Assembly: GCF_000397205.1 (NCBI RefSeq)
Contig: NC_021237.1
Span: 3,535,001 to 3,599,000 of the forward strand
Direction: 5' to 3'
DNA length: 64,000 nt
DNA from: Pseudomonas protegens CHA0
Lineage (GTDB): Bacteria; Pseudomonadota; Gammaproteobacteria; Pseudomonadales; Pseudomonadaceae
The notes beneath the pieces were generated by a model. That model made no database searches, was not told the origin of the DNA, and was given only the letters and a program-made list of their open reading frames with translations. The position numbers and the translations under genes are program-made. Positions 28,456 to 43,533 of the stretch are shown piece by piece. Position 1 is the stretch's first letter, and the number at the start of each line of letters is the position of its first letter.

Positions 28456-28470
28456 GCAGCGCCCGTGCCA
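28456..28470 (-). promoter_or_regulatory. Sigma-54 promoter for the DszB1-aldolase-SsuD-importer operon
   Basis: On the minus strand the sequence is TGGCACGGGCGCTGC. The -24 box TGGCACG is perfect, and the -12 box CTGC has the invariant GC at correct spacing (10 bases from GG to GC). The expected start site is about 12 bases further, some 27 bases before the gene start. Confidence 0.8.
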
Positions 28471-28533
28471 ACCGGGCAAAGCCCCGGATTACGGGGCCTG
28501 GGCCGCTGCCCGCGAAACCGGCACCTCGCCGAC

Positions 28534-28612
28534 TGCTGCCCGACCAGCAGCATTGCGCAGCGACTGCTGCTGTCGGAGCAACGGGCCGACGAGCATTGCT
28601 GCTGGAGCAGCA
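28534..28612. promoter_or_regulatory. Array of three activator-type dyads between divergent sigma-54 promoters
   Basis: Three 16-base sites share a 7-2-7 layout: TGCTGCC-CG-ACCAGCA (28534), TGCTGCT-GT-CGGAGCA (28565) and TGCTGCT-GG-AGCAGCA (28597). They start 31 and 32 bases apart, about three helical turns, so they lie on one DNA face. They sit 64-140 bases from the minus promoter and 90-165 from the plus promoter, the normal place for a sigma-54 activator. Confidence 0.7.
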
Positions 28613-28699
28613 GCAGGCGTTTTAGCACCCATTGCGCACCCGCCCGCCAGCCGTGTCGCACAAGGCCTGCAACGGATTTTCAGCACACTGAAAAGGCCC

Positions 28700-28714
28700 T
28701 GGCGCAGAACTTGC
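28700..28714 (+). promoter_or_regulatory. Sigma-54 promoter for the DszC-like gene
   Basis: TGGCGCAGAACTTGC has GG and GC at the invariant ten-base spacing and a perfect TTGC -12 box. It lies 276 bases before the coding start, so the mRNA leader would contain two REPIN copies. Confidence 0.78.
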
Positions 28715-28743
28715 TCAAGCCTCCTCAAACCCAGCCCTTTTTC

Positions 28744-28957
28744 GTAGGAGCTGGCTTGCCGGCGAAGGCGTCGCCAAGACCGGCGCCAGGCTCAAGGGCC
28801 CCTTCGCCGGCAAGCCGGCTCCTACGGATCAGGCCGATACACACGCCCCTGTAGAAGCTGGCTTGCCAGCGAAGGCATTGCCAAGACCGGCGCCAGGCTC
28901 AAGGGCCCTTTCGCCGGCAAGCCGGCTCCTACGGATCAGGTCGATACACACGCCCCT
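28744..28957. repeat. Two REPINs in a 107-base tandem duplication
   Basis: REPINs at 28744-28825 and 28851-28932 share not only their arms but also the flank GGATCAGG(C/T)CGATACACAC, so the 107-base unit is directly duplicated. Both lie in the predicted 5' leader of the DszC-like gene. Confidence 0.88.
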
Positions 28958-28989
28958 GGGGGCAGATTTCTTCAGATAGAGGTACCAGC

Positions 28990-30237
28990 ATGAGTAGCGT
29001 TCAAGCCCTTCCTGTCACTCCGGTCCGTGTCCTGGGCAGCGAGGCCGAAGCCATCGCCGTGGCCCGGGAAATCGCCACGGAAATCGCCGCCATCGCCGCC
29101 GACAGCCAGGCCAACGGCCAGTTGCCGCGGCGCCAGGCGCAGTTGCTGTCCGACAGCGGCCTGACCGCCATCGGTGTGCCCAAGGCCTTCGGTGGCCTGG
29201 GGGCCTCGGTGGCCACCATCGTCGAGACGGTGCGCCTGATCTCGGTGGCCGATGGCGGTGTGGGCCAGTTGCTGCAGATCCACAACGTGATGCTGCGGGG
29301 CATCTTCAACGGTTACCCGGATGCCGTGCGCGACCGCGTGGTCAGCGACGTGCTGGCCGGCAAGCGCCTGGGCAATGCCCTGGCGGAGATCGGCGGCAAG
29401 AACAAGTTCGCCCTCAAGACCCGTATCGAGCGCCGCGCCGACGGCAAGCTGATCCTTAACGGCAGCAAGTTCTACTCCACCGGTTCCTACCTGGCCGAAT
29501 GGATTTCCCTGACCGCCGCCAGCGAAGAAGGCGGCGCCGGGGTGCTGCTCAACCGCAACGCTCCGGGCCTGACCCTGGTGGACGACTGGCATGCCTTCGG
29601 CCAGCAGAATTCGGTCAGCGGCACGGTGCTGTTCGACAACATCGAACTGGACGAAGACTTTGTCTCGCCGCGCAAGGGCCCGATGAAACGCACCGGCCTG
29701 ACCTTCCCGCAGATCCTCCATGCGGCCATCGACACCGGGATCGCCGCCGGAGCCCTGGGGGCCGCGGTGGACTACCTCAAGCAGCACGCCCGGCCCTGGG
29801 TGGAAAGCGGCGTCGACCACGCCAGCGAAGAGCCGCACATCATCAAGCAGATCGGTGAATACGCCGTGGCCCTGCGTGCTGCCGAATCCTTGCTGCGCGA
29901 TGCCGCGCGGGTGTTCGACGAACACGAGCAGGACCCGGACAACAAGGAACTGCAGGATCAGTTGATCCTGTCCGTGGCCACCGCCCGGGCCCATTCCGAC
30001 AGCGCCTCGCTGAAGATCTCCAGCGACATCTTCTCGCTGTTGGGGGCCAGTTCCTCCCTGAGCAAATGGAACCTCGACCGCTTCTGGCGCAATGCCCGGG
30101 TGCACACCACCCACGACCCGATCCGCTGGCGCCTGCACCACGTGGGCAACTACTACCTCAACTGCGTCGACCCGGGCGAATACACCGCGATCCTCAACGC
30201 CAAGGAGCAACAGGGCGCGACCCGCCCCGCGCCATAA
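28990..30237 (+). CDS. DszC/SfnB-like FMNH2-dependent monooxygenase (acyl-CoA dehydrogenase fold)
   Basis: A 415-residue cytoplasmic flavoprotein with the three acyl-CoA dehydrogenase domains (helical about 20-130, beta 140-240, helical 255-400). The C-terminal HDPIRWRLHHVGNYYL replaces the dehydrogenase base region and is typical of the DszC/SfnB sulfur-acquisition group, which use FMNH2 and O2 to oxidise sulfur compounds rather than acyl-CoA. The active-site openings FGGLGASVATIVE and LNGSKFYSTGSYLAEW fit. It is first in a unit with the ABC exporter. In a 4S-like route it would oxidise a thioether or sulfone-type substrate; the actual substrate is unknown. Confidence 0.83.
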   Translation: MSSVQALPVTPVRVLGSEAEAIAVAREIATEIAAIAADSQANGQLPRRQAQLLSDSGLTAIGVPKAFGGLGASVATIVETVRLISVADGGVGQLLQIHNVMLRGIFNGYPDAVRDRVVSDVLAGKRLGNALAEIGGKNKFALKTRIERRADGKLILNGSKFYSTGSYLAEWISLTAASEEGGAGVLLNRNAPGLTLVDDWHAFGQQNSVSGTVLFDNIELDEDFVSPRKGPMKRTGLTFPQILHAAIDTGIAAGALGAAVDYLKQHARPWVESGVDHASEEPHIIKQIGEYAVALRAAESLLRDAARVFDEHEQDPDNKELQDQLILSVATARAHSDSASLKISSDIFSLLGASSSLSKWNLDRFWRNARVHTTHDPIRWRLHHVGNYYLNCVDPGEYTAILNAKEQQGATRPAP

Positions 30238-30258
30238 CCCCAACCACCGCCATCCCTC

Positions 30259-30447: not shown

Positions 30448-30479
30448 GGGGGGTGGCCGATTTTTTGAACGAGCCCTGC

Positions 30480-32261
30480 ATGATCGAAAAACACCCTCTT
30501 TTGCGCGCGCTGGCGATCTACCGGGAAGTGCCCTGGCGCTTCACCCTGGTGGCGCTGCTCTATGTCGCCGTCAACCTCGGGCTGGTCTGGCAGCAGTGGC
30601 TGATCGGCCATGCGGTCAACGATGTCAGCAGCGGGCAGGCGGTAAAGCACCTGGCCGACGGCAGCCTGGATGCCAGCCTGGGCTGGTACTGGCTGTGGCT
30701 GCTGCTGGCGGTGGCCCTGGGCCGCGGCCTGTTGCAGTACGCCGCCACGGTGTTGTCCCTGGTGCTCAGCCAGGAACTGCTGACCCGCCTGCGCGAGCGC
30801 ATCCTGCAGCAGGTCCAGGGCCTGCACCTGGGCTACCACTGGCAGCACGGCATGGGTGAAATGATCACCCGCACCACCCGTGATGCAGACAAGGTCCGCG
30901 ATGCCCTGATCAGCTTCTGGCGCCAGGTGGTGGAAACGCCCCTGGTGGTGCTGGCCACGGTCGGCCTGCTGGCCTGGTACAGCCCCTGGCTGGCGGTGGT
31001 GCCGCTGCTGCTCACCGCCTGCGGACTGTGGATCTTCGTGCGCCAGACCGAGCACCTGGTGAGCCTCGACCGCGCAGTGGGCGCTGCCTACGACCGGGTC
31101 AACCAGGACCTCAGCGAGGGCATCGGCGGGGTGCGGGTGATCAAGTCCTTCGCCCTGGAGCACAGCCGCATCCAGGGTTTTGCCGCCCAGGTCGGGCTGT
31201 TCGCCGAGCACGCGCGACGGGCCCTGGCCTATTCCAGTTCGCGTATCCCCCTGCCCCAGGCCGTGGTCGCCCTCAGCCACGTGTGGATCCTGGTCTACGG
31301 CGCTCATCAGGTGGCGGCCAGGCAGCTGGGGATCGGCGAGCTGGTCAGCGCCCTGCTGATCGTGACCACCCTGGTGTTTCGCATCGAAGGCATCGGCCGG
31401 GTGATGCAGACCTTTGCCGATGCCCGCTCCAGTGCCGAGCGTATCTGGCAGTTGCTGGACGAGCCGCTGCACATCCGCAGTGGCAACGCCCGGCTGCCCC
31501 AGGCGCCCCTGGGGTTGCGCCTGGAGGGGGTCAGCGTCAGCGCCCCCGGCGGTGGCCGGAAGATTCTCGATGACTGCTCCCTGAGCCTTGAGCCCGGCGA
31601 GGTGGTGGCCCTGGTGGGCGCCACCGGCACCGGCAAGAGCCTGTTGGCCAGCCTCCTGCCGCGCCTCACCGAGGCCGGTGCCGGCCGGGTGCTGCTGGGC
31701 TCGGAACTCAGCGGCTGGCAGGACGTGCGCGACCTGGACCTGCAACAGCTGCGGCGCCGGGTGCATGTGGTGCCCCAGGAAAGCTTCCTGTTTTCCGACA
31801 CCCTGGCGGCCAACCTGCGCCTCACGGCCCCCGACGCCAGCCACCGGCAGCTGCGCCAGGGCCTGGCCCTGGCAGCCGCCGAAGACGTACTGGAACGCTT
31901 GCCCCAAGGGCTGGACAGCCGCCTCGGCGATCGCGGGGTCACCCTCTCCGGTGGCCAGCGCCAGCGCCTGAGCCTGGCCCGGGCGCTGCTGGGGGAGCCG
32001 GACATTCTCTGCCTCGACGACGCCACCAGCGCCCTGGACGCCATCAGCGAACGCCAGGTGCTGGACAACATCCGCCAGTTGCGCCGAGACCAGGGCCGGG
32101 CCACCACCTTGCTGGTGATCTCCAGCAAGCTCTCGACCATTCTCCTGGCGGACCGGGTGTTGCTGCTGCAGGACGGGCGAATCCGCGCCAGCGGCCGCCA
32201 CGCCGAGCTGCTCAAGACCAACGCCCACTACCGCGACCTGCTGGGAGTCGACCATGGCTAA
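30480..32261 (+). CDS. ABC exporter half-transporter, degenerate ATPase (subunit 1)
   Basis: A 593-residue inner-membrane type IV exporter subunit: six helices (about 15-310) then an ATPase domain. Walker A is GATGTGKSL (380-388, ending Leu instead of Thr/Ser). The signature LSGGQRQR is canonical, but Walker B is ILCLDDATSALD, with Asp514 in place of the catalytic Glu, and the switch His is replaced by Ser549 (VISSKLST). It overlaps subunit 2 by eight bases. These changes are just those of the non-hydrolytic partner in heterodimeric exporters. The ATG at 30480 was chosen because the family N-terminus begins there; upstream frame is REPIN sequence. Confidence 0.86.
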   Translation: MIEKHPLLRALAIYREVPWRFTLVALLYVAVNLGLVWQQWLIGHAVNDVSSGQAVKHLADGSLDASLGWYWLWLLLAVALGRGLLQYAATVLSLVLSQELLTRLRERILQQVQGLHLGYHWQHGMGEMITRTTRDADKVRDALISFWRQVVETPLVVLATVGLLAWYSPWLAVVPLLLTACGLWIFVRQTEHLVSLDRAVGAAYDRVNQDLSEGIGGVRVIKSFALEHSRIQGFAAQVGLFAEHARRALAYSSSRIPLPQAVVALSHVWILVYGAHQVAARQLGIGELVSALLIVTTLVFRIEGIGRVMQTFADARSSAERIWQLLDEPLHIRSGNARLPQAPLGLRLEGVSVSAPGGGRKILDDCSLSLEPGEVVALVGATGTGKSLLASLLPRLTEAGAGRVLLGSELSGWQDVRDLDLQQLRRRVHVVPQESFLFSDTLAANLRLTAPDASHRQLRQGLALAAAEDVLERLPQGLDSRLGDRGVTLSGGQRQRLSLARALLGEPDILCLDDATSALDAISERQVLDNIRQLRRDQGRATTLLVISSKLSTILLADRVLLLQDGRIRASGRHAELLKTNAHYRDLLGVDHG

Positions 32262-34161
32262 TCCAATCGCCGGCAAGGCCCTGAGCGATATCGAAATCGA
32301 GGAAATGCTTGCCCGCCAGGCCCTGGACCGCAGCATGCTGTCGCGCCTGCTGCCCCTGCTGCGGCCGATCCGCGGCCCGATCCTGACGGTGATCGGGATC
32401 GAGTTGCTGCTGGTGTTCACGGTGTTCCTGCGGCCCTGGTTCGTGCGCGAACTGCTGGACCGCGGGCTGGTCCCGGACCAGGGTCACTGGCTGCTGGACG
32501 AGTCCCTGGTGCTGTGGCTGGGCCTGGGGCTGGCGGCCAGCTGGCTGGGGCGCTTCGTCCTGGCCGGGCTGTCGCAGTTCGTCGCCGGCAGCGCGGCGAT
32601 CCGGGTGCTCAACGACCTGCGGGTCAAGGTCTTTGCCCATATCCAGGCCCTGAGCGTCAGCTACTTCGACCAGACCCGCGCCGGGCGCATCATTTCCCGC
32701 GCCGACCGCGACGTCGACAGCCTGGAACCGCTGCTGATCCAGGGTCCGCCGGAGCTGCTGGGGGCCCTGCTGCGCTGCGGCCTGGCGGCGCTGATGCTGT
32801 GGCGCATCGACCCGCGCTTCTTCCTCAGCCTGGCGGCCACGGTGCCGCTGCTGGCGCTGGCGACCTGGGGCTTCAAGCGCATCTCCCAGCGCAACTGGGC
32901 CAGAGTCGCGGAGAACCGCAGCCGCTTCACCGCGCACCTGGTGGAAAGCGTCAGCGGCGCGCGCATGCTCCAGCAATGCGGGCAGCAGGAACCCAACCTG
33001 CAGCGCTATCGCGGCCTGCTGGATGACTTCAACCAGGCGCTGATCCGCGGCAGCCTGCGCTCCAGCTGGTTCGCCCCATTCACCGCGCTGCTCAGCACCG
33101 CCGGCATGGCCGCGCTGCTGCTGGTGGGCGGCTATGGGCTGGCCGATAACCAGATCAGCGTTGGCCAGATGGCGGAAAGCCTGTTCTACGTGTTTCTGTT
33201 TCTGGGCCCGTTGCAGGAACTCTCTGACCTGTTCGAACGCTACGCCACCGGCTCGGCCTCGGCGCAGCGGATCTTTCTGCTGCTGGACACCCGGCCCCAG
33301 GTCCTCGACCCGGCCCAGCCCCAGCGCATGCAGCGGGCCCGGGGCGAGGTCGGTTTCGAACAGGTGCGGTTCGCCTACGACCCCAGGAGCAAAAGCGCGG
33401 TGATCCAGAACCTGGATCTGCAGATCAAGGCCGGCGAAGTGCTGGCGATTGTCGGCCCCTCGGGCCATGGCAAAAGCACCCTGGTGCAGTTGCTGACCCG
33501 TTTCTACGACGTTCAGGGCGGCGCCGTGACGCTCGACGGCGTGGACATCCGGCACCTGGCCCAGCACGACCTGCGCCGGGCCGTGGGCGTGGTGCTGCAG
33601 GACAATGTGCTGTTCAGCGGCACTATCCTCGACAACCTGCGCCTGGCAGCCCCCGGCGCCGATGATGCAACGCTGATTGCCGCGGCCCGGGAGCTGGGGG
33701 CCGACGAGGTGCTGGAACGCCTGCCCCACCAGTACCACAGCGAGGTCGGCCCCCTGGGTGGACACCTGAGCCATGGCCAGCGGCAACTGGTGTGCCTGGT
33801 ACGGGCCTACCTGGCCAACCCGGCGGTGCTGGTACTGGACGAAGCCACCTCGGCGGTGGACATCCACACCGAGCGGCGCATCCAGCGTGCCCTGCGCCGG
33901 CTGTGCCAGGGGCGTACGGCGATCATCATCGCCCACCGCCTGGCGACCATCCGCGACGCCGACCGGATCGCGGTGATCCGCCACGGCCAACTGGTGGAAC
34001 AGGGACCGCATCAGCAGTTGATCCGGCAGAACGGCGCCTATGCGGCGTTGTACCAGGCCTATCTGCGTAGCGCCGACCAACCCGGCGGCGCAAGCCCCGC
34101 GGCCCCTTTCGCCGGCAAGCCGGCTCCTACACAAGCACCGCCGGTATCGCGCCAGCTGTAG
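32254..34161 (+). CDS. ABC exporter half-transporter, active ATPase (subunit 2)
   Basis: A 635-residue partner of the preceding subunit, with six membrane helices (about 45-330) and an ATPase domain. Walker A GPSGHGKST (401-409), Walker B VLVLDEATSAVD and switch region IIAHRLAT are canonical, but the signature is LSHGQRQ (505-511) instead of LSGGQ. The heterodimer would therefore have one good site (this Walker A/B plus the partner's LSGGQ) and one dead site. The last 20 or so residues (FAGKPAPT and following) are read from a REP element, so the C-terminus is probably extended by repeat insertion. Substrate unknown; perhaps a pathway by-product. Confidence 0.86.
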   Translation: MANPIAGKALSDIEIEEMLARQALDRSMLSRLLPLLRPIRGPILTVIGIELLLVFTVFLRPWFVRELLDRGLVPDQGHWLLDESLVLWLGLGLAASWLGRFVLAGLSQFVAGSAAIRVLNDLRVKVFAHIQALSVSYFDQTRAGRIISRADRDVDSLEPLLIQGPPELLGALLRCGLAALMLWRIDPRFFLSLAATVPLLALATWGFKRISQRNWARVAENRSRFTAHLVESVSGARMLQQCGQQEPNLQRYRGLLDDFNQALIRGSLRSSWFAPFTALLSTAGMAALLLVGGYGLADNQISVGQMAESLFYVFLFLGPLQELSDLFERYATGSASAQRIFLLLDTRPQVLDPAQPQRMQRARGEVGFEQVRFAYDPRSKSAVIQNLDLQIKAGEVLAIVGPSGHGKSTLVQLLTRFYDVQGGAVTLDGVDIRHLAQHDLRRAVGVVLQDNVLFSGTILDNLRLAAPGADDATLIAAARELGADEVLERLPHQYHSEVGPLGGHLSHGQRQLVCLVRAYLANPAVLVLDEATSAVDIHTERRIQRALRRLCQGRTAIIIAHRLATIRDADRIAVIRHGQLVEQGPHQQLIRQNGAYAALYQAYLRSADQPGGASPAAPFAGKPAPTQAPPVSRQL

Positions 34162-34230: not shown

Positions 34231-34240
34231 GGCGCTGGGT

Positions 34241-34288
34241 TGTTGCGCGCTCAGCAGCGGTTGCTGCCGGGGTGCTGCTACAGCAGCA
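34241..34288. promoter_or_regulatory. Pair of activator-type dyads upstream of the SsuD2 operon
   Basis: TGCTGCT-AC-AGCAGCA at 34273 is a perfect 7-2-7 dyad (9-base arms when extended by GG/CC). A weaker copy, TGTTGCG-CG-CTCAGCA, starts exactly 32 bases upstream at 34241. The pair ends 65 bases before the sigma-54 promoter. Confidence 0.68.
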
Positions 34289-34352: not shown

Positions 34353-34367
34353 TGGCATGGCCGTTGC
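34353..34367 (+). promoter_or_regulatory. Sigma-54 promoter for the SsuD2-DszB2-DszB3 operon
   Basis: TGGCATGGCCGTTGC matches the -24/-12 consensus at all but one scored position, with exact GG-N10-GC spacing, 66 bases before the gene start. Confidence 0.8.
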
Positions 34368-34432
34368 AATTACCCCCTGACAGGCGTCTTCGCACCCGCG
34401 CGGCGCAACGGGTTACTGAATCAGGAGCACCC

Positions 34433-35590
34433 ATGAGCACTGAATTTTTCTGGCGCCTGCCGCTGGGCACCGACGGCCCGCAGTTGAGCACCGACAAGCA
34501 CAATCGCGGCAACCCCCACCCCCGTGCCGGGCATATCGCCCCCGGGCGCCTGGCCAACGGCGAGCCCGACGGTTTCACCTACATCGACTACATCGCCCAG
34601 GTGGCCAAGGCCGCCGAGCTGGCGGGCTTCGAAGGCGCCCTGCTGCCTACCGGCCCCGAGCCCTGGGTGGTGGCCGCGGCCCTGGCCCGGGAAACCCGGC
34701 GCATCCGCTTTCTGATCGCCTTCCAGGCCACCTGGACCCTGCCGGCCTACGCCGCCCAACAGGCGGCGATCCTGCAGAACCTCAGCCACGGCCGCCTGGA
34801 CTGGAACATCATCACCGGCGGCAACCCGGTCAGCCAGCGAGCCAATGGCGATTACCTGGACCACGACCGGCGCTACCAGCGCACCGGCGAGTTCCTCGAC
34901 ATCATCCAGGGCCTGTGGCAGAACGAACGCTTCTCCTATGACGGCGATATCTACCAACTGGAGAACGGCGCCCTGCCCCCGGGCCTGCAGCAGGAGCGCA
35001 AGCCGGGGGTGTATTTTTCCGGTTTCTCCGATGCGGCCCTGGACGTGGCGGCGCGGCACGCCGACGTCTACCTCAACTGGGCCGAGCCCATCGACCAGCT
35101 CAAGCCCCACATCGAGCGAGTTCGCGAGCTGGCGGACAAACAGGGGCGCACGGTGCGCTTCGGCCTGCGGGTCGATCTGTTCGCCCGGGAAACCGAAGAG
35201 CAGGCCTGGGCCGACCTGCGCCGCCAGTTCGACAAGCTCGAAGGCAAGGGCAGCCTGATCGCCAAGAACTTCACCAGCGGCTCGGATTCGGTGGGCGCTG
35301 CGCGGCAGACCGCCTACCACCAGAACGTCGACCGCTTCGACGACCTGATCCTCGGCCCCAACCTCTGGGCCGGCTTCGCCAAGGCCAAGCCGGGGCCCAC
35401 CGTGGGCCTGGTGGGCAGCCACCAGAACGTTGCCGAGCGCCTGGCGGAGTACCGCGATGCTGGCTTCTCCACCTTCATCCTGGCGGGCAACCCGCACCTG
35501 GAAGAAGCCCTGCGCATCGGCCAGGAAGTCCTGCCCCTGGTGCACCAACGCCCCGTCGCCCAGGCGACGCCGCTACAGGCCCGCGCCTGA
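34433..35590 (+). CDS. SsuD-like FMNH2-dependent monooxygenase (LLM class), copy 2
   Basis: A 385-residue cytoplasmic enzyme, more like SsuD than copy 1 at many points: AGFEGALLPTGPEPWVVAAA, GRLDWNIITGG, DYLDHDRRYQRTGEF, ILGPNLWAG and NPHLEEALRIG. Where SsuD has Cys54, this protein has GPEPW without Cys; where SsuD has Arg-x-His it reads FGLRVDLFARET, so His is Asp. The usual Arg of the LVRGGAG loop is Lys (AKAKPG). Fold and cofactor are sure, but substrate must differ from that of SsuD. AGGAGC precedes the ATG. First gene of a unit with two DszB-like proteins, so it may produce the sulfinate they use. Confidence 0.83.
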   Translation: MSTEFFWRLPLGTDGPQLSTDKHNRGNPHPRAGHIAPGRLANGEPDGFTYIDYIAQVAKAAELAGFEGALLPTGPEPWVVAAALARETRRIRFLIAFQATWTLPAYAAQQAAILQNLSHGRLDWNIITGGNPVSQRANGDYLDHDRRYQRTGEFLDIIQGLWQNERFSYDGDIYQLENGALPPGLQQERKPGVYFSGFSDAALDVAARHADVYLNWAEPIDQLKPHIERVRELADKQGRTVRFGLRVDLFARETEEQAWADLRRQFDKLEGKGSLIAKNFTSGSDSVGAARQTAYHQNVDRFDDLILGPNLWAGFAKAKPGPTVGLVGSHQNVAERLAEYRDAGFSTFILAGNPHLEEALRIGQEVLPLVHQRPVAQATPLQARA

Positions 35591-35609
35591 GCCTATAAGG
35601 AGCCCGTTC

Positions 35610-36662
35610 ATGTCCCATCCTCTGGATACTCTCTGGTACACCCGCTGCCCGGTCCCCACGGGCCTGGGCATTGCCGTGCAGAAAGGCTGGCTGCAAGACA
35701 GCCTCGGCGCCCTCGGCACCCAGGTGCAGTCGCTGCGCGAGTCCAGCGACCAGGCCGTGCGCGAGTCGCACTTCGATCACAGCCTGCGCAACTCGGTGCG
35801 CCACGGCGGCAGCATCCCGGCCCTCTGGGCCCGGGCCCAGGGCCGGGAAACCCGGCTGATCGGCCTGTCCTGGGCCGATGAGGTGCAACTGATCCTGACC
35901 CGTGCCGACAGCGGCATCCACCGCATCAAGGAGCTCAAGGGCCGACGCTTCGGCCTGCCGGACTGGGCCGGCGCACAGATCGACTTCACCCGCGCCCAGG
36001 CCCTGCGCGGCCTGGAAAACGCCCTGGGCCTGGACGGCCTGCAAGTGGGCGACCTGCAACTGGTGAACTACCGCTACGGCGGCACCTTCAGCGACCCCCA
36101 GGTGCAGACCCTGGCCGACACCCCGGTCAGCGCCCAGCCCAGCAGCGGACGCAACCTGGAACTGCAGGGCCTGCTGCGAGGCGAAGTCGACGCGATCTTC
36201 CTCAAGGGCGCCAGTGCCGCCCGCCATGCCCATGAGTTCGGCCTGCGTACCCTGATCGACACCGGCGCCCACCCCGACCCGCTGATCCGCTGCAACAACG
36301 GCACACCGCGCACCCTGACGGTGGACAGTCATCTGCTGGAGCAGCACTTGGACGTCGCCACCGGGATTCTCGGCGCGGTGCTGCGGGCCGAAGACTGGGC
36401 CCGCCACCACCCGGAAGACACACGCCGCTACCTGGCCCGGGAAACCAACAGCAGCGAGTACTGGATCAGCGCCGCCTATGGCGAGGATGCCCACCTGCGC
36501 CTGGGCACCGGCCTGGAAGAACAGGCCATCGACGCCTTGCAGGATTTCAGCGCCTTCCTGCGGCGCTGGCGCTTCATCCCGCAGCAGGTGGATGTGCGCC
36601 AATGGATCGACCGCCGGCCGCTGGATGCGCTGCTGGCTACCCCTACCGCTCTGGCCGGCTGA
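35610..36662 (+). CDS. DszB-like sulfinate desulfinase, paralogue 2
   Basis: A 350-residue cytoplasmic protein. YTRCPVPTGLG contains Cys13, aligned with the DszB nucleophile; HFDHSLRNSVRHGGSIPALW carries His54 and Arg64, matching His60 and Arg70 in spacing and context (Arg-x-Gly-Gly). The full catalytic trio is kept. There is no signal peptide, so a transporter role is unlikely despite the binding-protein fold. It follows the SsuD-like gene by 19 bases with AAGGAG as ribosome site. It probably releases sulfite from an organic sulfinate; the acceptor is unknown. Confidence 0.73.
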   Translation: MSHPLDTLWYTRCPVPTGLGIAVQKGWLQDSLGALGTQVQSLRESSDQAVRESHFDHSLRNSVRHGGSIPALWARAQGRETRLIGLSWADEVQLILTRADSGIHRIKELKGRRFGLPDWAGAQIDFTRAQALRGLENALGLDGLQVGDLQLVNYRYGGTFSDPQVQTLADTPVSAQPSSGRNLELQGLLRGEVDAIFLKGASAARHAHEFGLRTLIDTGAHPDPLIRCNNGTPRTLTVDSHLLEQHLDVATGILGAVLRAEDWARHHPEDTRRYLARETNSSEYWISAAYGEDAHLRLGTGLEEQAIDALQDFSAFLRRWRFIPQQVDVRQWIDRRPLDALLATPTALAG

Positions 36663-36699
36663 CCGCGCCAGGTTTCATGGATTCGAACTGAAGACCCTT

Positions 36700-37758
36700 A
36701 TGAGCAAATCACTCGATACCCTCTGGTACACCCACAGCCCGGTGCCCACCGGGCTCGGCATCGCGGTACAGTCCGGACGCCTGGCAGAGGCCTTCCTGCC
36801 GTTCGGCACCAATATCCAGTCCCTGCGCGAATCCAGCGAACGCGAAGTGCGCGAGGCCCACTACGACCACCACCTGCAGAACTCGGTGCGCCACGGCGGC
36901 AACATCCCGGCCATCTGGGCCTACTCCAGCGGCGTGCAGACCCGGGTCCTGGGCTTGTCCTGGAGCGACGAGGTGCAGTTGATCCTGACCACCGCGGAAA
37001 GCGGCGTGAAGAGCATCCGCGACCTGAAGAACCGGCGCTTCGGCCTGCCCAAGTGGGCCAACGTGCAGATCGACTTCACCCGGGCCCAGGCCCTGCGCGG
37101 CCTGGAGAACGCCCTCAGGTTAGAAGGCCTGGAAGTGGCCGACGTGGAACTGGTGGACTACCCCTACGGCGGCACCTACAGCGACGAGCAGAAGCAGCAC
37201 CTGTACGGTTCCGAAGTCAGCCTTGGGGTGACCCGCTTCAGCCGGCGCAACAACGAACTGATCGGCCTGCTGCGGGGCGACATCGATGCGATCTTCCTCA
37301 AGGGCGCCCACGCCGTGCACCTGGCCAACGAGTTCGGCCTGCAGGTGGTGGTGGACACCGGCTCCCACCCCGACCCGCTGATCCGCTCCAACAACGGCAC
37401 CCCGCGTACCCTGACCGTGGACACCCACCTGCTGCGCGAGCACTTCGACGCCAGCGTGAAGATCGTCGACACCGTATTGCGCACCGAACAATGGGCCTGG
37501 GCCAACCCCGAGGAAACCCGGCGCTTCCTGGCCCGGGAACTGAACACCAGCGAGTACTGGGTGGCGGCCGCCTATGGCGAGGATGCCCACCGACGCCTGC
37601 GCACCACCCTGGATGCGCGATCCATCGAGGCCTTGCAGGACTTCACCGATTTCCTGCATCGCTGGCAGTTCATTCCCCGGCGTTTCGACGTGCGCGAGTG
37701 GATCGACTTCAGTGTGCTGGAGACGGTCATCGGCTCCACCTCCCGCGTGGCGGTATAA
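36700..37758 (+). CDS. DszB-like protein with Cys-to-Ser change, paralogue 3
   Basis: A 352-residue tandem duplicate of the preceding protein, alike along the whole length (LDTLWYT at the start, DPLIRSNNGTPRTLTVD, the EYWVAAAYGEDAH stretch). His54 and Arg64 are kept (HYDHHLQNSVRHGG), but the nucleophile position is Ser13 (THSPVPTG). The same Cys-to-Ser change made in DszB abolishes activity and allows substrate to stay bound, so this copy may bind without turnover, or use other chemistry. It lies 37 bases after paralogue 2 and ends the operon. Confidence 0.7.
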   Translation: MSKSLDTLWYTHSPVPTGLGIAVQSGRLAEAFLPFGTNIQSLRESSEREVREAHYDHHLQNSVRHGGNIPAIWAYSSGVQTRVLGLSWSDEVQLILTTAESGVKSIRDLKNRRFGLPKWANVQIDFTRAQALRGLENALRLEGLEVADVELVDYPYGGTYSDEQKQHLYGSEVSLGVTRFSRRNNELIGLLRGDIDAIFLKGAHAVHLANEFGLQVVVDTGSHPDPLIRSNNGTPRTLTVDTHLLREHFDASVKIVDTVLRTEQWAWANPEETRRFLARELNTSEYWVAAAYGEDAHRRLRTTLDARSIEALQDFTDFLHRWQFIPRRFDVREWIDFSVLETVIGSTSRVAV

Positions 37759-37782
37759 CCCCACGAACTGACGGTGGAACCC

Positions 37783-37864
37783 GTAGGAGCTGGCTTGCCA
37801 GCGAAGGCGCCAGCCCAGGCGATGCATGCCTCACGGGCCTCTTCGCCGGCAAGCCGGCTCCTAC
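37783..37864. repeat. REPIN, family A
   Basis: Inverted arms GTAGGAGCTGGCTTGCCAGC and GCCGGCAAGCCGGCTCCTAC around a variable core, 25 bases after the DszB-like paralogue 3 stop. Confidence 0.85.
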
Positions 37865-37879
37865 GGGCTGGGGGGCCGG

Positions 37880-37928
37880 TGCTGGCGCAGCAACAGTCCA
37901 GCGGGCAATCGGTGCTGCTCCAGCAGCA
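37880..37928. promoter_or_regulatory. Pair of activator-type dyads upstream of the TonB receptor pair
   Basis: A perfect dyad TGCTGCT-CC-AGCAGCA at 37913 (9-base arms with flanking GG/CC) is preceded 33 bases upstream by TGCTGGC-GC-AGCAACA at 37880. The sites lie about 170-220 bases before the sigma-54 promoter. Confidence 0.68.
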
Positions 37929-38099: not shown

Positions 38100-38114
38100 T
38101 GGCACGTTCTCTGC
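38100..38114 (+). promoter_or_regulatory. Sigma-54 promoter for the TonB receptor genes
   Basis: TGGCACGTTCTCTGC: perfect -24 box TGGCACG, GC at the -12 position with exact spacing, 41 bases before the receptor start. Confidence 0.83.
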
Positions 38115-38154
38115 TCTAGCCCTCTTAGCGAAACTTTAAATGGGGGAGTTCAAC

Positions 38155-40425
38155 ATGCATAAGCTTAATCCGATCACCAAGAGTCTATGGCTGGCACTGG
38201 CGCTCACCGGGGGCACATTCAGCCAGGGCCTGCTGGCCGCCGAAACCACAGACACCGACACCACCGGGAACAGCAGCGAACCCGCCCTGAAGACCGTCAC
38301 CGTCACCGCCCAGCACCGGGAGGAAACCCTGCAAGAGGTTCCGGTGGCGGTGTCCGCCGTACAGGGCACCAGCCTGGTGACCGACGGGGTGCGCAACATG
38401 GGCGACATCACCACCTTCATCCCCAACGCCTCGGCCAAGAACCCCGACGGCGACGGCCGCCCACGCTGGTACATCCGCGGCCTGGGCACGGGCGACACCG
38501 GGGCGGCCACGGTGTTCCCGGTGGGCATCTACGCCGATGATGTCTACCTCAACGCGCCCATCGCCGGCGGCGGGCCGCTGTTCGACCTGGAGCGCATCGA
38601 GATCCTGCGCGGGCCCCAGGGCACCCTGTACGGCAAGAACACCACTGCCGGTGCGGTCAATGTGATTTCCAAGAAGCCGACCTTCGACACCGACGGCTAC
38701 GGCACCCTGGGCATCGGCAGCAAGAGCGAGCGCATCCTCAATGGCGCCATCGGCGGTGCCCTGGTGGATGACAGGCTGGCGGCGCGGCTGTCGCTGTATT
38801 CGGAAGAACGCGACGGCTTCCAGAAGAACCTCACCGACGACCATACCTACGGCGACGTCGACAAGAAGGCCGTGCGCCTGCAGTTCCTGGCCAGGCTCAA
38901 CCCGGACCTGGACGCCCTGCTGAAGATCCACGCCCGGGAATACAAGGGCGACGGCAGCAACGGCTCGCTGCCGGTGGGCCGCTACTACAACGTCGGCTAC
39001 CAGCGGCCCGACGGACGCAACATCGCCCTCAACGTCAACGAGGATGCCAAGCTCGATCACGACGGTACGTCCCTGACCCTGAACTGGCACCTGGGGGACT
39101 ACACCCTGACCTCCATCAGCGCCTACGACTACATTCGCGGGCAGTCCACCAGCGACGCCGACTACACCCCCTACGAGGTCAACGGCGCGGCCATCAGCGA
39201 CAACCGCTACAACCAGTACTCCCAGGAACTGCGCCTGGCCTCGCCGCAGCAGGAAACCCTGCGCTGGCTGGCAGGGGTGCACTACTTCCATGAGGACCTG
39301 GACAGCTCGGCCAAGCGCCTCATCACCCCGGGCCCCACGCCCAACGGCACCGGCTCCAACCAGACCGGCGGCGCCACCGACTTTCGCGACCTCAACTACC
39401 AGCACACCACCGACAGCTACGCGCTGTTCGGCAACCTGACCTACGACTTCACCGACAACTTCACCGTGACCGGCGGCCTGCGCTGGACCCAGGAAAAGAA
39501 AGACATCGACCTGGACCTGACCCAGCTCACCCGGGCCACGGCCAACGGCCCGCTGATCCCCCTGGGCGCCGCCGGCAGCAACGGCAGCCGCGACGAGAGC
39601 AAGACCTGGGAAGCCTGGACCTACGATCTGACCCCGGAATACCGGATCAACGACAACGTCCGGGTGTTCTTGCGCTACGCCCACGGTTTCCGTTCCGGGG
39701 GCTTCAATACCGGGCTGTCCACCAGCCTGGCGCAATTGACCACGGTGGACCCGGAGAAACTCGACGCCTACGAGATCGGCCTCAAGTCGGAATGGTTCAA
39801 CCATCGCCTGACCGCCAACGCCAACGTCTTCTACTACGACTACTCGGACATCCAGGTGAACCTGCTGACGGTCAACAACGGCGTGCTCACCACGGCCCTG
39901 ACCAATGGCGCCAAGGGCAAGGTCAAGGGCGCGGAACTGGAGCTCGAAGGCCAGCCCACCGACTATCTGCACCTGCGGGCGGCGATCTCGTTCCTGGATA
40001 CCGAGTACACCGACTTCAAGAACACCAACCCCAACACCGGCGCGGTCACCGGCGACTACAGCGGCAACAGTTTCGTGCGCTCGCCGCGCAACGTGGTGTC
40101 CCTGGGGGCCGACTACACCATTCCCCTGGAGATCGGCGGCAAGCTGGTGGCCGGCGGCGACGTGAGTTTCCGCGACAAGGAATACTTCCTCGCCGACCGC
40201 CAAAGCAGCGCCGACAAGACCCTGAGCCAGCCCCACTACACCCTGGCCAACACCCGCCTGACCTGGTTCAGCCCGGATGAAAAGCTCAGCGTCACCGGCT
40301 TCGTCAACAACCTCACCGACCGCCGCTACCAGGTCCATGGCCGGCCCAACGGCACCCTGGGGCAATACGTCATCACCTACGGCGACCCGCGCACCGTGGG
40401 CCTGAGCGTCACCAGCCGCTTCTGA
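38155..40425 (+). CDS. TonB-dependent outer-membrane receptor, sulfur-island copy 1
   Basis: A 756-residue outer-membrane receptor: signal peptide (about 1-28, ending GLLAAE), TonB box region (KTVTVTAQHR), plug (about 45-160, with YIRGLGTGDTG and EILRGPQGTLYGKNTTAGAVN), then a beta barrel ending in the terminal Phe of VTSRF. There is no STN domain, so no FecR-type signalling. The ATG at 38155 has GGGGGAG upstream; a second ATG lies at 38140. Sigma-54 control and position inside the sulfur island suggest an organosulfur or sulfate-ester ligand instead of a siderophore. Confidence 0.85.
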   Translation: MHKLNPITKSLWLALALTGGTFSQGLLAAETTDTDTTGNSSEPALKTVTVTAQHREETLQEVPVAVSAVQGTSLVTDGVRNMGDITTFIPNASAKNPDGDGRPRWYIRGLGTGDTGAATVFPVGIYADDVYLNAPIAGGGPLFDLERIEILRGPQGTLYGKNTTAGAVNVISKKPTFDTDGYGTLGIGSKSERILNGAIGGALVDDRLAARLSLYSEERDGFQKNLTDDHTYGDVDKKAVRLQFLARLNPDLDALLKIHAREYKGDGSNGSLPVGRYYNVGYQRPDGRNIALNVNEDAKLDHDGTSLTLNWHLGDYTLTSISAYDYIRGQSTSDADYTPYEVNGAAISDNRYNQYSQELRLASPQQETLRWLAGVHYFHEDLDSSAKRLITPGPTPNGTGSNQTGGATDFRDLNYQHTTDSYALFGNLTYDFTDNFTVTGGLRWTQEKKDIDLDLTQLTRATANGPLIPLGAAGSNGSRDESKTWEAWTYDLTPEYRINDNVRVFLRYAHGFRSGGFNTGLSTSLAQLTTVDPEKLDAYEIGLKSEWFNHRLTANANVFYYDYSDIQVNLLTVNNGVLTTALTNGAKGKVKGAELELEGQPTDYLHLRAAISFLDTEYTDFKNTNPNTGAVTGDYSGNSFVRSPRNVVSLGADYTIPLEIGGKLVAGGDVSFRDKEYFLADRQSSADKTLSQPHYTLANTRLTWFSPDEKLSVTGFVNNLTDRRYQVHGRPNGTLGQYVITYGDPRTVGLSVTSRF

Positions 40426-40575: not shown

Positions 40576-40615
40576 AGGGGCGGTTGGGGTCATTCATTTC
40601 AGAAGGAATCCAAAG

Positions 40616-43087
40616 ATGTTCCATCGCAATCCGTTGGCCGGCGCCGTGGCGCTGGTCGTCGGCAGCCTTGCCGTGCCCGCGTTCGCTGCCCAGACCTCAA
40701 GCAATGCCCCCGGCGCCAGCGCCGATCACCTGGACACGGTGGTGGTGCTGGGCACCCGGCGCAGTGATGTAACGGCCCTGGAAAGCGCCGCACCGGTGGA
40801 CGTGCTGTCCGCCCAGCAGTTGCAGCAGACCGGGGCCAGCGACCTGTCCGGCGCCCTCACCGCCCTCTCGCCTTCGTTCAGCTACCCGCAGTCGCCCCAG
40901 GGCGCCTTCGCCGGCTCCATCGCCCAGGGTGCTTCCCTGCGCGGCCTGGCGTCGGACCAGGTGCTGGTGCTGGTCAATGGCAAGCGCCGCCACACCAGCG
41001 CCAACGTCACCCGCCAGAGCCTGGTCAACGGCCGGGGCGCCGCCGCGGTGGACCTGAGCCTGATCCCCCTGAGCGCCATCGAGCGAGTGGAGATCCTGCG
41101 CGACGGCGCCGCCGCCCAGTACGGCTCCGACGCCATCGCCGGGGTGATCAATATCGTGCTCAAGGAAAAGGACGACGGCGGCAACGTCGGCTATCGCTTC
41201 GGCGGCTACGACAAGGGCGATGGCCTGCAACGCAAGCTCAGCGGCTGGAAGGGCTTGAGCCTGCCCAACGACGGCTTCCTCACCTTGAGTTTCGATGCCG
41301 GCAGCCAGGACCCGGCCAGTGACACCAACCCCGACAACCGGATCTTCTACCCCGGCTCCACCAGCACCCAGACGCCGCGGGAGCAGAACAACCGCTACCG
41401 CACCTGGCGCTGGGGCTCGGGCAACGTCTCGGACCAGTACAACTTTGCCGCCAACAGCGAGTTCGGCCTGGGCGAGGGGCTGACCGCCTACGGTTTTGCC
41501 ACCTACTCCCACAAGAACACCGACGCCGAAGGCTTCTTCGACCCGCCCACCACCTTGCGCAACAACTACGGCAGCGACGCCCTGCAACGCTACCCCGACG
41601 GCCGCCTGCCGATCACCCGCTACTCGCTGGAGGACTATGCCCTGACCGGTGGCCTGCGCTACGAGGACGAGCGCCTGGGCAAGTTCGACCTGGCGCTGAA
41701 CCATGGCGACAACAGCCTGAAATCCGCCGACCGCAACGCCATCAACCCCAGCTGGGGCGAGGCCAGCCCGGCGAAGATCTACACCGGCAAGCGCGAGGCC
41801 GACCAGACCAACCTGACCCTGGACTGGGTTCGGGACTTCCCCACCGACCTTCTGTTCAAGCCCCTGACCCTGTCGGCGGGCCTGGCCTGGCGCCAGGAGA
41901 ACTACGAACTGAGCGCCGGCGAAGCGGCGGGCTGGCAGAACGGGCCGCTGTTCAATACCGTGGACCCGGTCACCGGGCGGCGCATTCCCGGCTACTACTC
42001 AGGAATCACCCAGGTCGACGCCGCCACTCTGGAGCGCAAGGTCTGGGGCGCCTACATCGACGTCGAAGGCCAGGTCACCGAGAAATTCCAGGCCGGGGTG
42101 GCGGTGCGCACCGAGCACTACTCGGATTTTGGCGACACCACCAACGGCAAGCTGTCGCTGCGTTACGACTTCACCCCGCAGCTCGCCGCCCGGGCCACCG
42201 CCAGCACCGGCTACCGGGCGCCGTCCCTGGTGCAGAGCGGGCTGTCCTCGTTCAGCGTGCAGGTGGTGGAGCAACCGCCGGGCAGCGGCAACTACGTCGA
42301 GGTGCAGCAACGCACCCTGCGCGCCGACAGCCCGGAAGCCAAGCTGCTGGGGGGCAAGGCGCTGAAGCCCGAGGAGTCCACCAACTACTCCCTGGGCCTG
42401 GTCTGGCGGCCGCTGGCCAACGCCTCGGTGACCCTGGATGCGTACCGGATCAACATCGACAACCGCATCACCCTGTCCGACCAGTTGCCGGCCTCGGTGG
42501 TCACGCCGATCTTTGCCGGCACCCCTTACGCCAACATCCAGAGCGCGGCGTTCTACACCAACGTCGCCGACACCCGCACCGATGGCGTCGAGCTGACCGG
42601 CAACTACCAGCTGGACCTGCAGCAATGGGGGCGCCTGAACCTGTCCAGCGGCTACAGCCAGAACAACACCCGGATCACCGCCCTGCGGGACGTGGGCAAC
42701 ATCGCCGGCTCGCAGATCGTCGGCCGCACCACCCAGGGCCTGATCGAGGACGGCACCCCGAAGAACAAGCTGACCCTGAGCGCCAACTGGCTGTACGACA
42801 GCTGGGGCCTGACCCTGGCCCAGCGCCGGTACGGGCAATGGAAGAGCCTCAACGCCAGCAACCCGACCCTGGACCAGACCTTCAGCGCGCAATGGGTCAC
42901 TGACCTGGACATCAGCTACCACTTCGACAAGGCGCTGAAGCTGTCGGTGGGGGCTATCAACCTGTTCGATACCCACCCGGACAAGGCATCCGGGGCGCAG
43001 TTGTATGGCGTGCCGAAATACTCCATCACCAGCCCCGAGGGCGCCCAGGGCGCGTTCTACTACACCAGCGTCAGTTACGACTTCTGA
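40616..43087 (+). CDS. TonB-dependent outer-membrane receptor, sulfur-island copy 2
   Basis: An 823-residue outer-membrane receptor with signal peptide (to about 25, AVPAFAA), a TonB-box-like LDTVVVLGTRR, a plug with VLVLVNGKRRHTSANV, IERVEILRDGAAAQYGSDAIAGVIN, and a barrel ending in SYDF. It has no STN domain. It belongs to a different subgroup from its neighbour and is not a recent duplicate. AGAAGGAA precedes the ATG. No separate promoter is evident; it may be transcribed with copy 1 through the REPIN. Ligand unknown. Confidence 0.85.
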   Translation: MFHRNPLAGAVALVVGSLAVPAFAAQTSSNAPGASADHLDTVVVLGTRRSDVTALESAAPVDVLSAQQLQQTGASDLSGALTALSPSFSYPQSPQGAFAGSIAQGASLRGLASDQVLVLVNGKRRHTSANVTRQSLVNGRGAAAVDLSLIPLSAIERVEILRDGAAAQYGSDAIAGVINIVLKEKDDGGNVGYRFGGYDKGDGLQRKLSGWKGLSLPNDGFLTLSFDAGSQDPASDTNPDNRIFYPGSTSTQTPREQNNRYRTWRWGSGNVSDQYNFAANSEFGLGEGLTAYGFATYSHKNTDAEGFFDPPTTLRNNYGSDALQRYPDGRLPITRYSLEDYALTGGLRYEDERLGKFDLALNHGDNSLKSADRNAINPSWGEASPAKIYTGKREADQTNLTLDWVRDFPTDLLFKPLTLSAGLAWRQENYELSAGEAAGWQNGPLFNTVDPVTGRRIPGYYSGITQVDAATLERKVWGAYIDVEGQVTEKFQAGVAVRTEHYSDFGDTTNGKLSLRYDFTPQLAARATASTGYRAPSLVQSGLSSFSVQVVEQPPGSGNYVEVQQRTLRADSPEAKLLGGKALKPEESTNYSLGLVWRPLANASVTLDAYRINIDNRITLSDQLPASVVTPIFAGTPYANIQSAAFYTNVADTRTDGVELTGNYQLDLQQWGRLNLSSGYSQNNTRITALRDVGNIAGSQIVGRTTQGLIEDGTPKNKLTLSANWLYDSWGLTLAQRRYGQWKSLNASNPTLDQTFSAQWVTDLDISYHFDKALKLSVGAINLFDTHPDKASGAQLYGVPKYSITSPEGAQGAFYYTSVSYDF

Positions 43088-43106
43088 GGCCGGATTGCTG
43101 CCGGGG

Positions 43107-43143
43107 TGTTGCCCTGGCAGCAGTGGCTGCTGCCCAGGCATCA
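43107..43143. promoter_or_regulatory. Pair of activator-type dyads far upstream of the SsuC-type operon
   Basis: TGTTGCC-CT-GGCAGCA (43107) and TGCTGCC-CA-GGCATCA (43128) each keep six of seven arm pairs and the 7-2-7 layout, and are 21 bases (two turns) apart. They lie about 380 bases before the sigma-54 promoter, on the far side of three REPINs. The overlap GGCAGCAGTGGCTGCTGCC can also fold as a hairpin after the receptor gene, so a terminator role is an alternative. Confidence 0.5.
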
Positions 43144-43193
43144 GTTTCGCTGGCACGCCAGCGCCCACAACCCACCCACACGCCGCTCCTCCC

Positions 43194-43508
43194 GTAGGAG
43201 CCGGCTTGCCGGCGAACAGGCCCGCAAGCCCTGCATCGCCCCGACCGACGCCTTCGCTGGCAAGCCAGCTCCTACAGCCGCCAGATGCATCCCGCAGGCC
43301 CGCCCGCCCCTTAGGAGCCGGGCTGCCGGCGAACAGGCCCGTAAGCCTTGCACCGCCCCGGCCGACGCTTTCGCTGGCAAGCCAGCTCCTACAGCCGCCA
43401 GATACATCCCGCAGGCCCGCCCGCCCCGTAGGAGCCGGCTTGCCGGCGAACAGGCCGCAAGCCTTGCATCGCCCTTGCGGACGCCTTCGCTGGCAAGCCA
43501 GCTCCTAC
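43194..43508. repeat. Three tandem REPINs with 117-base period
   Basis: Copies start at 43194, 43311 and 43428, exactly 117 bases apart. Each has arms of about 20 bases (GTAGGAGCCGGCTTGCCGGC / GCTGGCAAGCCAGCTCCTAC; the middle copy starts TTAGGAG) and shares the spacer AGCCGCCAGATxCATCCCGC. This is a BIME-like array formed by tandem duplication. Confidence 0.9.
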
Positions 43509-43518
43509 GAGCGCGCGA

Positions 43519-43533
43519 TGGCACAGGTCTTGC
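43519..43533 (+). promoter_or_regulatory. Sigma-54 promoter for the SsuC-SsuC-SsuB operon
   Basis: TGGCACAGGTCTTGC: -24 TGGCAC and -12 TTGC at perfect spacing, 38 bases before the first permease start and 11 bases after the last REPIN. Confidence 0.82.

Follow-up and report, generated by a model that had tools for sequence, protein, structure and literature searches.

RNA polymerase carrying sigma-54 (RpoN) requires an enhancer-binding protein bound upstream. In Pseudomonas, SfnR and the sfn-msu regulon serve the use of dimethyl sulfone and methanesulfonate, and the expression of SfnR under sulfate limitation is reportedly dependent on CysB, as the title of a cited paper has it. The canonical SfnR targets sfnG and msuE carry the box TGTTGC-N4-GCAACA, which was derived in the present analysis and not taken from the SfnR papers. 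The locus described here, a putative sulfur-scavenging island in a 64,000-nucleotide stretch of the genome of the soil bacterium Pseudomonas protegens CHA0 (the window), carries the palindrome TGCTGC-N4-GCAGCA, which differs by one base per half-site. An earlier note on this DNA knew of no described binding site with this motif; we likewise found no description of it in the literature searched, a scope outside which the primary SfnR papers lie, but as a variant of the box at SfnR targets it does have a relative.

Results

At the five positions where the earlier note had placed sigma-54 promoters, all five sites have the GG-N10-GC core of -24/-12 promoters with conserved flanks, as scored over 12 positions (Table 1). 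Their number does not speak for them: the window holds 17 sites scoring at least 10, which is not above chance (30 first-order Markov sequences have 15.8 on average). Sites scoring at least 11 number 3, against 1.4 in the Markov sequences (largest 6). They are credible because they are conserved upstream of orthologs. The promoter of the SsuD-like monooxygenase gene LucB recurs in 20/20 fetched islands, the two diverging promoters between SBPa and AcylDH in 13/13 AcylDH-bearing loci, that of TonB-dependent receptor 1 (TBDR1) at 14/14 close orthologs having an upstream gap, and that of the SsuC-like permease in 12/12 loci in which a TonB receptor gene precedes the permease gene, with a gap between them.

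Table 1. Genes, sigma-54 promoters and dyads of the island, in window coordinates
Feature	Position	Strand	Remarks
SBP5-type substrate-binding protein (oligopeptide/nickel type)	23627..25198	-	below family cut-offs
LucA, SsuD-like FMN monooxygenase	25209..26405	-	264 bits, cut-off 518; start codon provisional
Class II aldolase-like protein	26618..27346	-	weak matches: ribulose-5-phosphate 4-epimerases
SBPa, DszB/SsuA-like	27362..28417	-	2de2 E 6e-12; SsuA_fam 54.6 bits, cut-off 163.5; start codon provisional
Sigma-54 -24/-12 promoter TGGCACGGGCGCTGCA	28455..28470	-	leftward gene row; 11/12
Dyad TGCTGCCCGACCAGCA	28534..28549	.	1 mismatch to 7-2-7
Dyad TGCTGCTGTCGGAGCA	28565..28580	.	2 mismatches to 7-2-7; 31 bp after 28534 dyad
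Perfect dyad TGCTGCTGGAGCAGCA	28597..28612	.	32 bp after 28565 dyad
Sigma-54 promoter TGGCGCAGAACTTGCT	28700..28715	+	SfnB/DszC-like gene; 10/12
SfnB/DszC-like flavin oxidoreductase (AcylDH)	28990..30237	+	TIGR04022 396 bits, cut-off 431; DszC 3x0x E 9e-50
MsbA-like ABC exporter subunit 1	30480..32261	+	below family cut-offs
ABC exporter subunit 2	32254..34161	+	
Relaxed dyad TGTTGCGCGCTCAGCA	34241..34256	.	10/12; read directly from sequence
Perfect dyad TGCTGCTACAGCAGCA	34273..34288	.	32 bases after 34241 dyad
Sigma-54 promoter TGGCATGGCCGTTGCA	34353..34368	+	upstream of LucB; 12/12
LucB, SsuD-like FMN monooxygenase	34433..35590	+	305 bits, cut-off 518
SBPb, DszB/SsuA-like with Cys	35607..36662	+	
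SBPc, DszB/SsuA-like	36697..37758	+	Ser at DszB catalytic-Cys position
Relaxed dyad TGCTGGCGCAGCAACA	37880..37895	.	2 mismatches
Perfect dyad TGCTGCTCCAGCAGCA	37913..37928	.	33 bases after 37880 dyad
Sigma-54 promoter TGGCACGTTCTCTGCT	38100..38115	+	upstream of TBDR1; 11/12
TonB-dependent receptor 1 (TBDR1)	38155..40425	+	
TonB-dependent receptor 2	40616..43087	+	
Dyad TGTTGCCCTGGCAGCA	43107..43122	.	1 mismatch
Dyad TGCTGCCCAGGCATCA	43128..43143	.	1 mismatch; 21 bp after 43107 dyad
Sigma-54 promoter TGGCACAGGTCTTGCG	43519..43534	+	upstream of SsuC-like permease; 10/12
SsuC/TauC-like permease 1	43571..44338	+	
ABC permease 2	44277..45110	+	
ABC ATPase	45120..45917	+	

The four upstream regions in which dyads had been noted contain nine 6-4-6 palindromes, three of them perfect, and the helical spacing described earlier was reproduced (31 and 32, 32, 33, and 21 bases). 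The array at 28534-28612 sits between two diverging sigma-54 promoters. REP repeats crowd the intergenic regions of the island. The stricter 7-2-7 form of the motif (TGCTGCY-N2-RGCAGCA) matches the window with at most three mismatches at 63 places, where 30 are expected and 0/100 shuffles reach 63; only 13 of these matches fall in the four upstream regions. In the genome of 6.87 Mb, which was surveyed through pattern searches and short fetched stretches, perfect 7-2-7 matches occur at six places (none for the reversed control), three in the island, one adjoining the activator gene described below and two within unrelated genes, and matches with one mismatch at 54 places (14 for the control). 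The one-mismatch census covers 46 of these 54 places, the remainder being four in the window and four others. The automatic coding/intergenic flag is crude, calling the stretches L002 and L004 coding through long spurious frames, and gene position and distance to a sigma-54 site were therefore used instead. The genome scan for dyads near promoters, which the earlier note had proposed, finds a sigma-54 site of at least 11 within 450 bases at 4 of the 46 examined sites, and these are the four perfect sites outside genes.

Conservation speaks for the dyads as well. The exact palindrome is found in 76 of 137 upstream regions and no other 6-4-6 palindrome in more than 5, and in all five promoter classes the true half-site comes top among 90 permuted ones. 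Regions shorter than 100 bases, or whose stretch contains no gene further upstream, were dropped before counting; one of the 57 retained upstream regions belongs to a 48% TBDR1 paralog (L169). Among counted dyad pairs, 72/180 are spaced by 31-33 bases. At LucB, 4 of 20 islands have no dyad of at least 10, and 6 of 20 none of at least 11. The island is broken up in one genome (G032). Dyads and promoters are kept together in relatives, and the conservation check proposed earlier did not turn up promoters that are conserved while their dyads are not.

It is hardly conceivable that chance, codon-driven CTG/CAG palindromes or the intergenic REP repeats of this genome account for the dyads. Two of the six perfect matches do lie inside genes, genomes that lack the activator still have 1.6 perfect matches on average, and REP repeats are frequent in the very regions concerned, but the half-site permutation and conservation tests contradict this explanation. 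The spacing of 31-33 bases and the position of the motif, which by eye lies outside the REP repeat unit, also speak against it.

The single SfnR-type activator that the earlier note had expected outside the window now has a strong candidate gene, ebp2, at G000:C1:3293109-3294182, 275 kb from the island. Its product EBP2 (358 aa) is an SfnR paralog with 63% identity and has the architecture of SfnR-type proteins, with a AAA+ domain (Pfam Sigma54_activat 22-187, AAA lid 193-263), no N-terminal regulatory domain (nothing before residue 22) and a C-terminal Fis-type helix-turn-helix, which is sub-threshold in Pfam and was aligned with that of 24 SfnR proteins. EBP2 is not the ortholog of the SfnR of the msu cluster, which is encoded by a separate gene (L032:8577-9683) adjoining MsuE (TIGR03566 over cut-off) and an MsuD-like gene. 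Upstream of ebp2-type genes, a dyad of at least 11/12 is present at 66 of 80 named loci (12/12 at 49) and missing at 14; the 80 are the best of 218 and represent 76 strains by title, four strains being counted twice, so that not all loci are one-to-one orthologs. A facing sigma-54 site of at least 10 at ebp2 itself occurs at 1/80 loci within 120 bases and at 4/80 within 450, and therefore no self-activation is indicated. In the 25 kb around ebp2 (L007, L034), a dyad is accompanied by a promoter of at least 11 at one place only. One shared activator for the whole island, as proposed in the earlier note, is thus supported, but the regulon extends beyond the window, as it seemingly includes the genes divergent from ebp2.

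The distribution across genomes ties the activator to the island. Orthologs of EBP2 (E <=1e-170) and LucB (E <=1e-150) are found in exactly the same 33 genomes among the 199 Pseudomonas genomes sampled, on the basis of 9-10 scored candidates per genome and with genomes counted singly, phylogeny being ignored. Within the 33, going by the places listed, ebp2 and LucB are less than 25 kb apart in 18, about 31 kb in one, 275 and 614 kb in two, and on different contigs in 12, which in a draft does not prove distance: in G140 one half of the island, with SBPa and AcylDH, lies on the ebp2 contig. At least five perfect dyads are present in 13/33 genomes with EBP2 and in 0/166 without it. The fetched stretches around the perfect dyads G140:C41 and G090:C14 contain no sigma-54 site of at least 11; by eye, the former dyad lies among phage-like genes and the latter inside a long frame.

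These observations also bear on the notion that the dyads are bound by a different regulator, perhaps one of the LysR type like CysB, and that the -24/-12 sites are coincidental. The unremarkable count of score-10 sites would suit it. However, the promoters recur at orthologs of LucB, of SBPa/AcylDH in both directions and of TBDR1, the dyad resembles the SfnR-target box, and the distribution across genomes indicates an enhancer-binding protein; we consider this explanation very improbable.

The boxes at EBP2-linked regions and at SfnR targets differ in their prevailing base pair. Sites at SfnR targets have T..A in 27/27 cases (10/17 sfnG regions, 9/10 msuE regions; the 17 sfnG loci include L221, which starts inside the gene and so has no real upstream region), whereas the 169 matches in EBP2-linked regions comprise 108 C..G sites, 49 C/T hybrids and 11 T..A sites, so that the SfnR-type box is not the rule there; both totals include overlapping matches. 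In the recognition helix, 81 EBP2-type proteins differ from 24 SfnR proteins at three positions (V339/T, A341/T, E344/I; L267, which is EBP2 itself, was left out). The separation is not absolute, given the hybrid half-sites and the T..A boxes upstream of some EBP2-type genes whose helix is unchanged.

That SfnR is encoded in the same genome, that its box differs by a single base per half and that hybrid half-sites exist could mean that the canonical SfnR of the msu cluster activates the island, tolerating the C/T difference, with EBP2 minor or redundant. We regard this as unlikely. Among the first 40 genomes, 22 hold SfnR (23 matches minus that of G027, which is EBP2), and 18 of these 22 have neither EBP2 nor LucB. 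Conversely, two of the six genomes with EBP2 and LucB in this set (G013, G027) have no SfnR match, yet keep paired dyads at LucB (10 and 10, 11 and 10 of 12), 32 bp apart, with a score-10 promoter. EBP2, by comparison, matches LucB in all 33 genomes.

SBPa, SBPb and SBPc find their best NCBIfam match in the SsuA family (55-80 bits, under the cut-off of 163.5) and therefore could be binding proteins. We compared them at what we take to be the active-site Cys, His and Arg-Gly positions of DszB. Over 20 islands, the catalytic-Cys position is occupied by Cys in SBPa (13/13 found), including that of the window, and in SBPb (17/17), and by Ser in SBPc (19/19). The presumed His and the R-x-GG motif are kept in this sequence comparison.

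Discussion

Together, our data make it very probable that TGCTGC-YNNR-GCAGCA is the enhancer of EBP2, through which the protein drives the promoters of the island along with the genes divergent from ebp2. We suggest a model in which EBP2 dimers bind the dyads, often two or three of them, separated by two or three turns of the helix so as to share one face of the DNA, and mostly ~70-250 bases upstream of the -24/-12 promoters (~400 at 43107-43519). EBP2 would then spend ATP to open the RpoN-RNA polymerase complex and so turn on the five island promoters as well as the genes divergent from its own, the array at 28534-28612 serving both diverging promoters. Lacking a sensor domain, EBP2 is probably regulated through its abundance, which, by analogy with SfnR, may rise under CysB-type control when sulfate or cysteine is low. 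The TonB receptors and ABC importers are predicted to take up an organosulfur compound, from which the DszC-, SsuD- and DszB-related proteins would release sulfite.

A more far-reaching reading is tentative, and we lean slightly against it. It would have two sensorless paralogs in one cell respond to sulfur starvation by way of palindromes with a single base difference in each half, with three helix residues separating the regulons. EBP2 might command a complete 4S-like route for a bulky organosulfur compound, consisting of TonB uptake and DszC-, SsuD- and DszB-like steps, and the Cys-to-Ser DszB paralog might be a binding or sensing protein.

With EBP2, a large sulfur-scavenging island of Pseudomonas gains a candidate activator together with its proposed DNA site and targets. 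EBP2 and SfnR, with their C..G and T..A boxes, are a natural pair for learning what governs site choice by the Fis-type helices of sigma-54 activators, and the island suggests that TonB-dependent uptake extends to an organosulfur substrate yet to be explored.

As for the dszABC enzymes, SBPa, SBPb and SBPc have no full-length sequence relatives in the PDB (E <=0.01) other than DszB, and the SfnB-like enzyme of the island is nearest to DszC. However, the DszB relationship is distant (E 7e-8 to 6e-12), the monooxygenases are SsuD-like and not DszA-like, one of the three DszB-like proteins has Ser in place of Cys, and sigma-54 control is predicted. As a whole, the system is best seen as a variant of the SfnR kind. 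Like SfnR, EBP2 is a sigma-54 activator lacking an N-terminal sensor domain, with a palindromic 6-4-6 box upstream of -24/-12 promoters and sulfur-scavenging monooxygenases as predicted targets. P. aeruginosa, according to papers that mention the work, also has two SfnR-type activators in one genome, SfnR1 and SfnR2 (Lundgren 2019), a parallel drawn from these mentions and not from sequence. EBP2 is set apart from SfnR as a paralog with a mostly C..G box and three distinct helix residues, and its predicted target set is larger, adding TonB receptors, DszB-like proteins and ABC exporters.

Promoters and dyads in the chromosome

The five sigma-54 promoters of the organic-sulfur island and its strict and relaxed dyads, as described in the earlier note, are all present in the window sequence with the spacings given there. 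The number of promoters alone shows no excess over chance, the window holding 17 sites with at least 10 of 12 matches (15.8 expected) and 3 with at least 11 (1.4 expected). The dyads, on the other hand, are commoner than chance: a pattern search of the single chromosome (G000:C1, 6,867,980 bases), which contains the window at 3535001-3599000, found the perfect 7-2-7 dyad (core TGCTGC-N4-GCAGCA) at six places and its reversed control at none. Two of the six are intragenic. Each of the four non-genic perfect dyads has a sigma-54 site scoring at least 11 within 450 bases, and the 42 other dyad places examined have none.

The 16 letters of the two intragenic palindromes are also found in other genomes, and one such match, in G090, lies upstream of the gene for LucB, an SsuD-like FMN monooxygenase encoded from window position 34433. 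The intergenic regions that hold the putative enhancers are also filled with REP-type repeats (GTAGGAGCTGGCTTGCC and its partner).

Coordinates of features in the window, the chromosome and fetched loci
Feature	Coordinates	Strand	Remark
Perfect dyad in SufS/CsdA-type cysteine desulfurase gene	L001:1501		469.6 bits, just below cut-off of 475.1
Perfect dyad in family-5 solute-binding-protein gene	L006:1501		
REP-type repeats	window 28740-28960, 34150-34230, 37780-37870, 43190-43510		
Region with REP-type repeats between dyads and promoter	window 43107-43519		repeats put about 400 bases between them
ABC exporter gene pair	window 30480-34161		
SBPc gene	window 36697-37758	+	
ebp2	G000:C1:3293109-3294182		358-residue product
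Third short sensorless sigma-54 activator	L033:9266-10198		52% to EBP2 across 272 residues

Conservation in relatives

Dyads and promoters both recur upstream of orthologs in related strains, where the earlier note had asked whether the dyads persist. Twenty islands were fetched from the 33 genomes with LucB and the candidate activator EBP2. Promoters scoring at least 10 were found for LucB in 20/20 islands, on both diverging sides between SBPa (a DszB/SsuA-like protein) and the SfnB/DszC-like AcylDH in 13/13 (seven stretches are without AcylDH), for 14 of 14 close orthologs of the TonB-dependent receptor TBDR1, and for the SsuC-like permease in all 12 loci where it follows a TonB receptor gene. 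The TBDR1 count leaves out a 43% paralog that is not judgeable and stretches with none or, in G032, a fragment only; two 47-48% paralogs have no promoter scoring at least 10. Of the three permease loci that are rearranged, one has its only site at -474 and the other two lack a site.

Dyads matching at least 11 of 12 half-site positions stand upstream of AcylDH (12/13), LucB (13/16), TBDR1 (15/15), the permease (11/13) and ebp2 (66/80); over all 20 islands, the LucB dyad reaches 11 in 14 and 10 in 16. The commonest of all exact 6-4-6 palindromes in these 137 upstream regions is TGCTGC, which occurs in 76 of them; TGTTGC comes second with 5. Spacings between dyads, over 180 counted pairs, were 31-33 bases in 72, 21-23 in 19 and 63-64 in 9; the 22 pairs 29 bases apart we take for an overlap artefact from the CTG repeat within the motif.

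A candidate activator outside the window

A candidate for the activator expected outside the window was found via the fourth non-genic perfect dyad, which lies upstream of ebp2. Its product has a sigma-54 interaction domain starting at residue 22 and no domain N-terminal of it. EBP2 has 24 matches in the genome, itself included; the closest other one is an SfnR-type gene (63%). The nearest named relatives of EBP2 include a P. protegens strain (97%). The genes transcribed divergently from ebp2, probably one operon, are faced by a leftward sigma-54 promoter that lies 126 bases away from the dyad; they encode, among others, an SsuD-like monooxygenase, a protein of SBP5 type and a TonB plug protein. 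Across 80 loci with ebp2-type genes, a leftward site scoring at least 10 lies within 450 bases upstream in 59, a dyad of at least 11 together with a leftward site 60-300 bases away in 53, and a site facing ebp2 within 120 bases of its start in one. The third short activator lies, by eye, near amino-acid-type ABC transporter genes.

In 199 Pseudomonas genomes, sampled from a larger group, LucB and EBP2 orthologs each occur in 33, and these are the identical 33 (Fisher value 2e-38, a statistic that disregards phylogeny and linkage). Judged by the listed positions, the two genes lie within 25 kb in 18 of the 33, about 31 kb apart in one, and on different contigs in 12, which in drafts is no proof of distance, as the ebp2 contig of G140 also carries the SBPa/AcylDH half of the island. 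The pairing is thus due in part to physical linkage. Such linkage is in its own right a point in favour of EBP2 being the cognate regulator; the odds for our reading stay unaltered. In CHA0 the genes are 275 kb apart and in G032 614 kb, so in some lineages the regulon has become divided.

Gene content of the island

The island encodes an SfnB/DszC-like enzyme (DszC E 9e-50; TIGR04022 396 bits, under the cut-off of 431), two SsuD-like monooxygenases, and three DszB/SsuA-like proteins, together with a pair of ABC exporter subunits, an importer of the SsuC type and two TonB receptors. This content fits uptake and stepwise desulfurization of an organic sulfur compound. The only full-length PDB relatives of the three DszB/SsuA-like proteins are DszB (one search also gave weak partial ClpC matches), and no signal sequence was seen by eye. 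A binding role is nevertheless conceivable for them, because their best NCBIfam score, though below its cut-off, is to the SsuA binding-protein family.

SBPc, the best conserved of the three, has Ser at the DszB catalytic Cys position (YTHSPVP) in all 19 orthologs found in the 20 islands (L154-L173); its neighbours retain Cys (17/17 and 13/13). SBPc appears to be a natural Cys-to-Ser variant that has become fixed, perhaps a binding protein. The ABC exporter pair lies within the island in 15 of 20 fetched stretches and may perhaps export a desulfurized product.

Comparison with SfnR

The SfnR-type gene stands in one row with MsuE (TIGR03566, above cut-off) and an alkanesulfonate monooxygenase nearest PDB 7jv3; the names MsuD, MsuC and SfnR in this row are our reading. 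In the literature, sfnG, msu genes and SfnR1 are up in sulfur-starved P. aeruginosa (PMC12581299). In P. donghuensis, root exudates of tomato and maize bring down a gene named sfnR in the paper, which may be of EBP2 or SfnR type, alongside tau, ssu and cys genes (PMC10256816).

G013 and G027, two genomes that have the island but gave no SfnR match, retain LucB dyad pairs 32 bases apart (10+10 and 11+10 of 12) and a score-10 LucB promoter. The SfnR targets examined, 17 sfnG loci and 10 msuE loci, differ from the island in the box of their upstream regions, TGTTGC-N4-GCAACA: all 27 matches of at least 11, from 10 sfnG and 9 msuE regions, have T..A at the third positions (7 sfnG regions and 1 msuE region gave no such match), whereas the 169 matches in island and ebp2 regions comprise 108 C..G, 49 hybrid, 11 T..A and 1 other. 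The C..G box would be new if the published SfnR site differs from it. The recognition helices differ consistently, SRNIVRARLEKIG in EBP2 versus SRNVTRTRLIKIG in SfnR (24 sequences aligned, out of 40 genomes): V339 against T (81/81 versus 22/24), A341 against T (81/81 versus 20/24) and E344 against I (81/81 versus 24/24), which suggests that residues 339, 341 and 344 may determine the base preference of the box.
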